NCBI RefSeq assembly: GCF_001078595.1
Contig: NZ_LFTY01000002.1
Coordinates: 2,785,773 to 2,849,772 of the forward strand
DNA length: 64,000 nucleotides
Reading direction: 5' to 3'
Source of the DNA: Candidatus Rhodobacter oscarellae
GTDB lineage: Bacteria > Pseudomonadota > Alphaproteobacteria > Rhodobacterales > Rhodobacteraceae
Under the pieces are notes generated by a model that saw only the letters and a list, made by a program, of their open reading frames with translations, was not told the origin of the DNA and searched no databases. The translations under genes were made by a program, and so were the position numbers. This document shows, piece by piece, positions 40,053 to 58,406 of the stretch. Every line of letters begins with the position of its first letter. Position 1 is the first letter of the stretch.

Positions 40053-41548
40053 GCCGCGCCGATCAAGCACGCGAAGCCCTCAAACACCCAGATCGTGCCG
40101 TTCAGAATGCCGGGCCACCAGCGGACGGCCTCGACGATCAGAAACACCGGCACAAAGAAGGCCAATGTGAAGGCCAGCGCCAAAGTGACCCGCCCGCCCC
40201 GCGCCGCGATGGCGTCCTCCGGGGCGTCGCGCAGCCATGCGGTGATGCGCAGCCGCCAGGGCTTTGGGTAGATGGTGAAAAACGCCGTGGCCGCGACCAC
40301 CCCGTGCAGCACGGTCGGGATCAGGGTCGAGAACAGCATGAACAAGAGCCACCAGTACTGACCCCGCGTGGCCGGGCCTTTGATCTCGGCAAAGAGAACT
40401 TCGAGACTCAACAATGGCACCCCGCCCGGCTGCGCCATATGGATGAACAGGATAATCACCGCGCCAAGCCCAAAAAAGATCACCACCGCGCCGGCCAGGT
40501 CGATCACCCAGGACCAGGGCAGCATCCCCTGCACGCCCTTGCGCAAGGACCAGCGAGTCAGACCAATGGACGCAAAATCCGCCAGCCCGTTCACCAGCGG
40601 CAGGAAAGACAGGAACAAAAGCTGCCCGCGTTCTTCATTGTCTAGCTCGGGCATGAAAGGCGTGGCGAACCACACGAAAACCAACGCCATCGCCGCCCAT
40701 AGGCCAAGTACCAATCTAGGACGACCAGTTTTCTGTCCGAACCATAGATTGAGCCAGCTTCCTGTGCCTACGCCTGCGCCTGCGACTACGAACACGAGTA
40801 CGACTGCGAATCCGAATGCGAATGCGAATGCGACTGCGAATGCGAATGCGCCTACGCCTGCGAATGCGCCTGCGACTGCGGCTGCGACTGCGCCGACGAA
40901 TACGAATGCGACTGCGCCTGCGAATACGCCTACAAATGCGAATGCGAATGCTCCTGCGCCTGCGACTGCGAATGCGACTGCGGAACTATCGAGCCAGATC
41001 GACAGGCCCAACATTGCCATTATCGACCCCCACCCGACGAAGACTAGTAGTCGTCGGGTGAGATCGGTGAACCGGGTGGAAATTAGCACCATGGCCAAGC
41101 CAAAACCTAAAAGGCTTATCGTCCCATAGCGCAGCCAGGTGCGTGGCTCCGGTGCCAGAACCTCTACACCGCCAACCATCCCCGAATTCGTCACCATCCA
41201 GCGCAGGCAAAGCGACAGGACCGGATAGGCCAAGGCGAAGATCAGCGTAAAGGACAGCAGGTTCAGACTCCACGCTCGTGCGGGGTGGGTCTTGGGCAAG
41301 ATGCGCTCGTCGCGCGCACACAGCACCGAATCCAGGATGTTCAGCCTGCGTTTTAACAGCCGCCGATAGGCCACGCCCCAGGTGTCGTCCTGCAGCCAGA
41401 CCATCATCCGCCTGCGGCTATTCGGGCTGTCTTTCAGATTGCCGATGAACCAGAAGCATGAGGTGAAGGTGACGGCAAAAAGCGCGCCCCAAAATCCTAG
41501 CTCCGAAATGACTTTTAGCAATCCGTCCAAAATGCGCCGCTCGCTCAA
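40049..41548 (-). CDS. Polytopic membrane protein with an alternating Ala-X repeat region
   Basis: The protein of about 499 residues has multiple predicted membrane segments before (FWGALFAVTFTSCFWFIG, NLLSFTLIFALAYPVLSLCL), across and after the repeat (ILFIHMAQ, WWLLFMLFSTLIPTVLHGVVAATAFF). Residues about 187-261 are almost only Ala, Phe, Val and Gly, with Ala at nearly every second position. I recognise no family. The start is uncertain: TTG 41548 or TTG 41530 begins just before the first membrane segment, while an ATG at 41668 would include intergenic repeats. No function is inferred. Confidence 0.68.
   Translation of the reverse strand: MSERRILDGLLKVISELGFWGALFAVTFTSCFWFIGNLKDSPNSRRRMMVWLQDDTWGVAYRRLLKRRLNILDSVLCARDERILPKTHPARAWSLNLLSFTLIFALAYPVLSLCLRWMVTNSGMVGGVEVLAPEPRTWLRYGTISLLGFGLAMVLISTRFTDLTRRLLVFVGWGSIMAMLGLSIWLDSSAVAFAVAGAGAFAFAFVGVFAGAVAFVFVGAVAAAVAGAFAGVGAFAFAVAFAFAFGFAVVLVFVVAGAGVGTGSWLNLWFGQKTGRPRLVLGLWAAMALVFVWFATPFMPELDNEERGQLLFLSFLPLVNGLADFASIGLTRWSLRKGVQGMLPWSWVIDLAGAVVIFFGLGAVIILFIHMAQPGGVPLLSLEVLFAEIKGPATRGQYWWLLFMLFSTLIPTVLHGVVAATAFFTIYPKPWRLRITAWLRDAPEDAIAARGGRVTLALAFTLAFFVPVFLIVEAVRWWPGILNGTIWVFEGFACLIGAA
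40764..40986. repeat. Degenerate hexanucleotide minisatellite (about 37 units)
   Basis: Units are GCGAAT, GCGACT and GCGCCT on the plus strand, with rare variants (ACGCCT, GCGGCT). Read on the minus strand each gives GCA plus TTC, GTC or GGC, so the products are Ala-Phe, Ala-Val and Ala-Gly pairs. Six-base units keep the reading frame whatever the copy number. Confidence 0.9.
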
Positions 41549-56579: not shown

Positions 56580-56741
56580 CTGTTGCTCTCCATTTGGCGG
56601 CCTGCTCCTCGCGCCCTGAGCGGGCAAGCCCGCTTGTCGGGCCCTCCTCGCAGCGAGGACGCCCGCAAGGCGCGGAGGAGCCTTTCCCTTAACGCAAGGG
56701 CGTTCTAGTCTTGGCACAAGAGCAGCACAAGACCGGCATAT

Positions 56742-56840
56742 ATGTGGTCCTACCGCTTCGCTACTTGAGGACGTGATGTCGTCCTACCGCTTCGCTACTT
56801 GAGGACGTGATGTTGTCCTACCGCTTCGCTACTTGAGGAC
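56742..56840 (+). repeat. Three tandem 34-bp units forming chained mini-ORFs upstream of xseA
   Basis: Unit phases begin at 56747, 56781 and 56815. Each codes an eight-codon ORF ending SYRFAT and a TGA: MWSYRFAT (56742-56768), MSSYRFAT (56776-56802), MLSYRFAT (56810-56836). The TGA overlaps GAGGA, the Shine-Dalgarno for the following start; the last one serves xseA. GTCCT and AGGAC in each unit also form an inverted pair. Confidence 0.8.
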
Positions 56841-56846
56841 ATGTGC

Positions 56847-58406
56847 ATGGATCTAATCGACGACCCCACCCCCGGCTCCAACACGCCCGAATTCACCGTC
56901 GGCGAGATCGCGGGCGCGGTCAAAAAGCTTGTCGAGGCAGAGCTCGGCTGGGTCCGCGTGCGCGGCGAGGTGGGCCGCGTGGTGCTGGCCCGCTCCGGGC
57001 ATCTTTATTTTGACCTCAAGGACGACCGCAACGTCCTTAGCTGCATGACCTGGAAGGGCCAGGTGCCAGGGATCGGCGTGATGCCCGAGGAGGGCATGGA
57101 GGTCGTGGCCGAGGGGCGCATGACCGCCAGCGGTTTCCAATCCAAGTTCTCGCTGAACGCCCAGCACGTCGCCGTGGCGGGCGAGGGCGCCCTGATGGCG
57201 CTTTTGGAGAAGCGCAAGAAGCAGCTCGCCGCAGAGGGGCTCTTTGACGACGCCCGCAAGCGCCCGCTGCCGTTTCTGCCCGAGGTGATCGGGGTGGTCA
57301 CCAGCCCGCAGGGCGCGGTGATCCGGGATATCTTGCACCGGTTGCGGGATCGCTTCCCACGCAAGGTGCTGGTCTGGCCCGTGGCGGTGCAGGGTCAGGC
57401 CTGCGCGCCAGAGGTCGCCCGCGCGATCGAGGGCTTCAACGCGCTGACGCCTGGCGGGGCCCTGCCCCGACCGGATCTGCTGATCGTCGCCCGCGGTGGC
57501 GGCTCCATCGAGGACCTCTGGGGCTTCAACGAGGAAATCGTGGCCCGCGCCGCGGCGGCCTCCGAGATCCCGCTCATCTCCGCCGTGGGGCATGAGACGG
57601 ACACGACCCTGATCGACTTCGTCTCGGATAAGCGCGCGCCTACGCCCACGGCAGCGGCGGAGCTGGCGGTGCCGGTGCGCCTAGAACTGCTGGCCTGGGT
57701 CGAAGCGCAGGGCGCGCGGGTCTCTGGGGGGCTGAGCCGTTTGATCCAGCAGCGCAAGACCCGCCTAGCGGATCTGGCGCGGGCCCTGCCGCGTCCCGAG
57801 GGGCTGACGGCCTCGGCACGGCAGCGTCTGGACCATATGGACGCGCGCCTGCCGCAGGCGCTCACCGCCGCGGCGAGCAAGAAACGGCTTCGGCTAAGCG
57901 AAGTAGCTGGCGCATTGCGGCCGCAGGCCTTGCGGCAGGGCCTGAGCGAGCGCGCGCGCGCCTTGACCACGGCAGCGGAACGCCTGGCCGCCGGCCACGC
58001 CCGCCAGGACAAGCGCCGCCGCGAGGTGCTCGCCACGCAGTCCAGCCGTCTTCGCCCCGAACGCCTGGAGCGCGACCTGGTCCGCGCTGGCGAAGCCTTC
58101 ACCCGCTTGGAACGGCGCTTTGCCGCGGTCGCGGGCACGCAGACCGCCACCTGGCGTAGGCAGCTTGAGGGGCTGGAGAGGCTGCGCCTCTCTATGGGCT
58201 ATGAGGCCACGCTAGAGCGCGGCTATGCCGTCGTGCGCGACGGCGAGACCGTTGTGACCAGCAAGTCCGGGGCCGAAGAGGCCAGCGCGCTGGAGATCCA
58301 ATTCTCTGACGGGCGGTTCTCGGTGGGCGGCGAGCGACCAAAACCGGCGCCGAAACGCGCGACAAAGCCGAGCCCGCCCGATGAGGAGCAGGGCAGCCTC
58401 TTCTAG
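56847..58406 (+). CDS. xseA: Exodeoxyribonuclease VII large subunit
   Basis: XseA is the catalytic subunit of exonuclease VII. The 519-residue protein has an N-terminal OB-fold (FTVGEIAGAVKKLVEAELGWVRVRGEVGRV, quoted in part: WVRVRGEVGRVVLARSGHLY), the catalytic region GVVTSPQGAVIRDILHRLRDRFP, ARGGGSIEDLWGFNEE and ISAVGHETDTTLIDFV, and a long Arg-rich coiled-coil tail. I prefer the ATG at 56847, with GAGGA seven bases upstream, over one at 56841. xseB is not adjacent. Confidence 0.95.
   Translation: MDLIDDPTPGSNTPEFTVGEIAGAVKKLVEAELGWVRVRGEVGRVVLARSGHLYFDLKDDRNVLSCMTWKGQVPGIGVMPEEGMEVVAEGRMTASGFQSKFSLNAQHVAVAGEGALMALLEKRKKQLAAEGLFDDARKRPLPFLPEVIGVVTSPQGAVIRDILHRLRDRFPRKVLVWPVAVQGQACAPEVARAIEGFNALTPGGALPRPDLLIVARGGGSIEDLWGFNEEIVARAAAASEIPLISAVGHETDTTLIDFVSDKRAPTPTAAAELAVPVRLELLAWVEAQGARVSGGLSRLIQQRKTRLADLARALPRPEGLTASARQRLDHMDARLPQALTAAASKKRLRLSEVAGALRPQALRQGLSERARALTTAAERLAAGHARQDKRRREVLATQSSRLRPERLERDLVRAGEAFTRLERRFAAVAGTQTATWRRQLEGLERLRLSMGYEATLERGYAVVRDGETVVTSKSGAEEASALEIQFSDGRFSVGGERPKPAPKRATKPSPPDEEQGSLF

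Follow-up and report, generated by a model that had tools for sequence, protein, structure and literature searches.

The 64,000-nt stretch of Candidatus Rhodobacter oscarellae DNA analyzed here (the window) carries three very short open reading frames (mini-ORFs) chained one after another in front of xseA, the gene for the exonuclease VII large subunit, and the question is whether this chain is a device that sets xseA output or has a simpler origin. A preliminary description of the locus had proposed a translational relay or attenuator tuning exonuclease VII, with a plain tandem repeat accompanied by an inverted pair as the fallback. Its reading of the layout was exact. Positions 56742-56843 of the forward strand consist of three tandem 34-nt copies (unit 1: 56742-56775; unit 2: 56776-56809; unit 3: 56810-56843; identity 100, 97, and 94%), and TRF reported a period of 34 with 2.9 copies; three copies as nearly perfect as these are no product of chance. 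Every unit provides an ATG, seven codons ending in SYRFAT, and a TGA (MWSYRFAT* at 56742-56768, MSSYRFAT* at 56776-56802, and MLSYRFAT* at 56810-56836; codon 2 translates as Trp, Ser, and Leu), and in every unit the TGA overlaps a GAGGA, which begins at 56767, 56801, and 56835, respectively. The units also contain a 26-bp hairpin core each (56747-56772, 56781-56806, and 56815-56840, all on the + strand), which in unit 1 runs as a GTC-CT stem, a conserved 16-nt loop, and AG-GAC; the outer stems of adjacent hairpins form the AGGACG-TGATGT-CGTCCT palindrome that spans the unit 1/2 junction. Rfam returned no match to the array at the gathering score. A CRISPR array was ruled out, the bases between cores being short and alike within an array, with no unrelated spacers of fixed length. 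Elsewhere in the window, positions 40774-40982 hold a long hexamer array (consensus CTGCGA, ~35 copies).

The frame of xseA offers two ATGs, at 56841 and 56847. The xseA protein of G295, a genome of the same genus (locus L156), begins MDLIDD and matches the window from the ATG at 56847, so we set the start there (xseA: 56847-58406, + strand). This start puts the GAGGA of unit 3 (56835-56839, + strand) 7 nt upstream, a good Shine-Dalgarno distance, and it presumably serves xseA in this role, as had been proposed. The leader of G295 reads AAGG-CCGGACCT-ATGGAC, whereas in the window the array lies between CCGGCATAT and ATGGAT; by manual count the spacing from CCGG to the start is 110 bases in the window vs. 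4 in G295, or about three units extra, and the ATG of unit 1 falls approximately where the relative has its xseA ATG. We scanned 30 xseA loci, taken from 38 genomes with an xseA match, and none of the other 29, among them that of the sole same-genus relative, has the repeat. Positions 56703-56741 (+ strand) retain what appears to be the ancestral xseA leader, with a TTCTA block (putatively -10-like) and the stretch where the old ribosome-binding site lay. The TTCTA block is common to several relatives, which suggests that transcription starts upstream of the array and that the array is transcribed; a start downstream of the units, which the preliminary description had named as fatal to its relay, is thus not what the leader suggests. 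A promoter and terminator scan and RNA folding of the xseA leader gave nothing above chance. A leader-peptide attenuator was ruled out (no terminator-like site, no alternative hairpin, fold z-score +1.0).

The unit is not confined to xseA. A 24-base core at up to three mismatches occurs at five places in this genome, three of them the xseA units. The fourth (L004) matches exactly and precedes a rhodanese/trhO-like gene, where start, stop, and Shine-Dalgarno are laid out as at xseA, and the fifth (L005) lies inside an acyl-CoA dehydrogenase gene (both gene names are readings of the translation); the two differences in L005 form a matching pair, GTC/GAC becoming GCC/GGC. With a 20-base core, the genome has seven places at up to two mismatches and 10 at up to three, the backwards control giving none, and all three flanking pairs are kept in nine of the 10. 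G295, the sole other same-genus genome compared, has no copy of the core anywhere at up to three mismatches. The fallback, an ordinary tandem repeat plus an inverted pair, was therefore close to the truth, except that its unit is a dispersed hairpin repeat.

Copies collected from many genomes form one family with the core NNN-CTACCGCTTCGCTRCTTGAG-N'N'N': a T-rich arm of ~8-12 nt, a variable outer stem of 3 bp, a CT/AG that is fixed, and a 16-nt loop that hardly varies. The central 20-mer is nearly invariant, the exception being A or G at position 14; the T-rich arm reaches to about -12 upstream, and downstream of the stem no position exceeds 0.21 bits. The outer stem covaries. Among 203 copies the three flanking positions pair in 194, 179, and 178, and the fourth in only 49; among 333 copies (up to four mismatches; backwards control, two hits) the corresponding counts are 321, 295, and 293 vs. 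193, 111, and 213 predicted by base composition. With arrays reduced to a single copy and shared flanks removed, 192 of 238 nonredundant copies form all three pairs (5,000 shuffles: mean 38.5, maximum 58). GCG/CGC, GTC/GAC, GCC/GGC, GGC/GCC, and CGC/GCG are the most frequent stems. Because the predicted folding energies of the repeat are ordinary (for examples with the GCG/CGC stem the minimum-energy DNA fold differs from the proposed hairpin), our claim of a hairpin rests on covariation and not on energy. Two Brevundimonas / Alpha proteobacterium L41A loci (L061 and L080) have a stem of at least 12 bp, GGATCAATCCACG ... CGTGGATTGATC, vs. the usual three variable pairs.

The heptamer GCGAAGC is an extra-stable DNA mini-hairpin. 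Such a mini-hairpin may form on the lower strand of the repeat, a lead to which DNA folding lends weak support; among the 333 copies, the inner 6-12 pair shows three double changes from G-C to A-T, and of the three bases in the small loop the middle one varies most (25 changes vs. 10 and 10).

The family is widespread. The 20-mer at up to two mismatches was found in 43 of 295 genomes of the bacterial family (Rhodobacteraceae), where the backwards pattern gave six hits, one each in six genomes. In 27 genomes chosen for having a hit, the richest have 106, 98, 89, and 57 copies, and the backwards control was zero in all 27. A scan of GTDB contigs recovered at least 119 stretches with the repeat; carriers among the matches listed are alphaproteobacterial (Rhodobacterales, Erythrobacteraceae, Parvularcula, Robiginitomaculum, Brevundimonas, and Methyloceanibacter) and actinobacterial (Euzebyaceae and Nitriliruptorales). 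Viral contigs contribute a further 89 stretches; four of these contigs (L226, L201, L209, and L191) have five to 10 copies each, at gene junctions or within long ORFs. The 35-base consensus matches 13 of 72,556 plasmid records, and none of 50,697 phage records or 5,426 E. coli genomes. No annotated feature lies beneath the 12 annotated plasmid matches, in an annotation table that omits RNA genes. Copies are found 5′ of genes, in frame inside genes, between rRNA genes, and inside 23S rRNA. On these grounds we conclude, with a probability of roughly 0.86, that the xseA array consists of a small stem-loop repeat of ~35 bp, dispersed in many genomes and present here in three head-to-tail copies.

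Two other repeats were met during the searches. Many copies in Robiginitomaculum (L068, L078, L087, L103, L127, and L141) seemingly lie within a longer mosaic repeat (TTTGCATTTTTAGCAAAAGTGGGAAG ... GGGTTTTGCGGCCAAAAATGCGAC), and L058:4800-5900 (query 600-685) has another dispersed repeat of ~85 bp, present on both strands and in many of the Erythrobacter genomes searched.

Comparison of occupied and empty sites gives the size of the insertion. At one Erythrobacter locus, a copy is present in two of 30 genomes as an insertion of ~36 bp (read from the alignment), and at a second locus seven of 30 genomes have one to three copies. The acyl-CoA dehydrogenase gene of this genome exceeds that of G295 by a net 12 codons, or 36 bp, in frame; two tyrS genes likewise carry the repeat in frame, as the peptides PSSSEAVG and PSSSDAAG. 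Tandem arrays recur across the family, with spacings in the first sample of 33 (11 cases), 34 (17), 35 (16), 36 (16), 38 (2), 39 (3), and 51 (1), and of 31-36 in Euzebyaceae. Insertions of ~36 bp together with tandem spacings mostly of 33-36 indicate that the insertion unit is approximately the tandem unit. No target-site duplication was identified at the compared sites, which are only ~70-82% identical and leave the ends of the element uncertain by a few bases, and no strain-level pair among those compared caught a copy moving. The absence of copies from G295 could reflect loss, yet its empty sites at xseA and acyl-CoA dehydrogenase look clean. Presumably copies are gained by insertion of a nonautonomous element, through an enzyme or copying process that uses the folded single strand, and arrays would build up through successive insertions or through slippage by whole units. 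A fixed loop on an exchangeable stem suggests recognition of a folded strand.

These results bear directly on the proposed relay, according to which ribosomes start, stop at TGA, rebind at GAGGA, and restart, so that unit number sets xseA output and arrays 5′ of genes would be retained for this purpose. The chaining of start, stop, and Shine-Dalgarno is perfect at xseA and recurs at a second gene of the same genome (L004), and at two other loci (L082 and L146) two-unit arrays end 5 nt before an ATG and the downstream frames begin alike. In the first sample, an ATG mini-ORF was present in seven of 20 copies just 5′ of genes vs. 32 of 242 others (P = 0.017), or, for bacterial loci only, in seven of 13 vs. 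28 of 148 (P = 0.008), and GAGG in 19 of 20 vs. 156 of 242; these upstream counts are rough since ORFs were called by length only. The ATG excess was, however, absent in a new sample (1/2 vs. 6/26; 1/10 vs. 5/56), which also lent no support to the GAGG difference. Selection for start codons on the mini-ORFs, suggestive in the first sample, was not replicated, so we do not claim it.

Other patterns also argue against the relay. The NTG before the stem belongs to the repeat, and C is not depleted at its first base (T 82, A 44, G 27, and C 24 of 177; 23 C at the preceding base). Among the 333 copies changes affect all codon positions, and the most variable sites are one first position (116), one third (30), and one second (25). 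Copies just 5′ of genes are about equally often reversed; both orientations exceed expectation near start codons (21 sense and 28 antisense of 315 vs. 10.2 expected for each; Euzebyaceae: 10 and 8 of 66 vs. 2.3), an excess that is expected if such places best tolerate copies. With the unit dispersed in unrelated contexts, missing from 29 of 30 xseA loci, and variable in a way that does not resemble coding constraint, a dedicated relay or attenuator that tunes exonuclease VII is not upheld, and we consider a functional relay improbable. As far as the sequences tell, the mini-ORFs follow from the repeat's own sequence and bear no sign of coding selection; their chaining would be incidental, though individual genes may make use of it.

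The same start-proximal excess in both orientations, together with the strongly conserved loop and compensating stem, might instead mean that copies are binding sites for a protein or regulator, or RNA-processing sites, that arose by convergence or selection and not by insertion. In-frame copies in acyl-CoA dehydrogenase and tyrS, copies in rRNA spacers and 23S rRNA, and empty sites shorter by ~36 bp speak against this, as do the neighboring genes, which do not recur; the enrichment near starts is also expected if copies at other sites are selected against. We regard convergence as the least probable of the alternatives, with hardly any weight next to insertion.

If copies are inserted, one of the closest known parallels is the REP. 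According to the accessible text of Di Nocera et al. (2013, PMC3733652), REPs of the GTAG and CGTC superfamilies are palindromes of 20-40 bp, dispersed and sometimes intragenic. The present repeat resembles them, as far as that text describes them, in being a short dispersed stem-loop without an ORF of its own that lies between genes and sometimes inside them (PMC3733652), and a REP-type element mobilized by a Y1 (IS200/RAYT) transposase is one candidate. However, a search for the transposase domain PF01797 in 12 genomes found it absent from nine, including this one and the four richest in copies (57-106), although the latter are draft metagenome assemblies in which absence is not absolute; the remaining three genomes gave four hits. 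The present repeat also differs from REPs, as that text presents them, in its fixed loop and varying outer stem, in having no GTAG or CGTC tag left unpaired beyond the stem (upstream there is only the T-rich arm), and in its head-to-tail arrays with a near-exact period (PMC3733652). We therefore rejected a Y1 transposase as the mobilizer in the copy-rich genomes and think a REP-type origin very unlikely. A recurring neighbor gene was also considered as mobilizer and none was seen: the 502 ORFs adjoining copies yielded only frames from rRNA regions and a few small clusters (four to five loci).

Rickettsia palindromic elements and MITE-like repeats offer a second comparison. In the accessible portion of Delihas (2007, PMC2229807), these measure ~100-200 bp and mostly have terminal inverted repeats, many have a target-site duplication, and the mobilizing mechanism is given as unknown. 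On that description, Rickettsia palindromic elements share with the present repeat a nonautonomous nature and insertion both into RNA genes and, in frame, into conserved genes; the differences are that our repeat is only ~35 bp long, has a stem of 3 variable and 2 fixed bp, and, in contrast to many MITEs, has no target-site duplication identified (PMC2229807).

Of the plasmid matches, all four that were opened lie in rRNA operons. Copies inside 23S rRNA near its 5′ end were found in Cereibacter sphaeroides, Rhodobacter sp. CZR27, and Sulfitobacter pontiacus (plasmid loci L450:1501-1534, L451, and L452), and folding of these three loci places the copy in a longer helix; Sulfitobacter and Gemmobacter aquarius relatives have a 23S hairpin shorter by ~34-40 nt there. 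Five further loci have a 23S copy in the opposite orientation (L029, L091, L144, L398, and L399, of which L029, L398, and L399 are one genome). Judged by its position, this site, which is distinct from the copies in the window, is putatively the helix-9 site of intervening sequences, which RNase III excises. Such sequences in 23S rRNA helix 9 are known in Alphaproteobacteria from the accessible text of two reports (PMC4990558, PMC8708148). The Cereibacter, Rhodobacter, and S. pontiacus copies, which lengthen a hairpin near the 23S 5′ end by ~34-37 nt, may be comparable to them, whereas the present repeat also occurs far from rRNA genes; judged by sequence and position, the repeat is a possible source of helix-9 intervening sequences.

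For xseA itself, the array would have been inserted between the ancestral ribosome-binding site and the start codon, separating the two, and the TGAGGA of the last copy would then have become the replacement Shine-Dalgarno, so that xseA would stay expressed. Translation begun at the old site would run through the mini-ORFs and, as a by-product, may resume at xseA. No well-placed Shine-Dalgarno other than the last GAGGA was seen at xseA or L004, so ribosomes at these two genes may indeed stop and reinitiate along the unit. Translational coupling by an overlapping stop codon and Shine-Dalgarno, and attenuation by leader peptides, are known systems. The likeness to coupling lies in a TGAGGA followed by a start codon a few bases on; the difference from both is that here the peptide codons show no sign of selection and the layout derives from a dispersed repeat. 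The array thus most probably arose by insertion and gives xseA its ribosome-binding site by chance, rather than being built as a relay.

The apparent relay accordingly looks to have an ordinary explanation in a dispersed repeat, and it is the repeat family that looks undescribed in the literature we searched. By sequence string and topic we found no description of it there, most subscription papers lying outside that literature, and one may exist elsewhere. More tentatively, and at slightly less than even odds, we propose an undescribed kind of miniature mobile DNA: a hairpin of 35 bp whose 16-nt recognition loop is fixed and whose stem can be exchanged, present in two phyla and in viral genomes, moved by machinery other than Y1, and seeding ribosome-binding sites, in-frame peptides, and 23S rRNA hairpins where it lands. 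If the family is real and mobile, it would provide a natural, countable system for studying how repeats without an enzyme of their own spread, and some extra hairpins of alphaproteobacterial 23S rRNA may have originated from it. A loop that stays fixed while its stem varies yet keeps pairing points directly to the mechanism of recognition, and the xseA case suggests that a gene can survive an insertion that replaces its ribosome-binding site.
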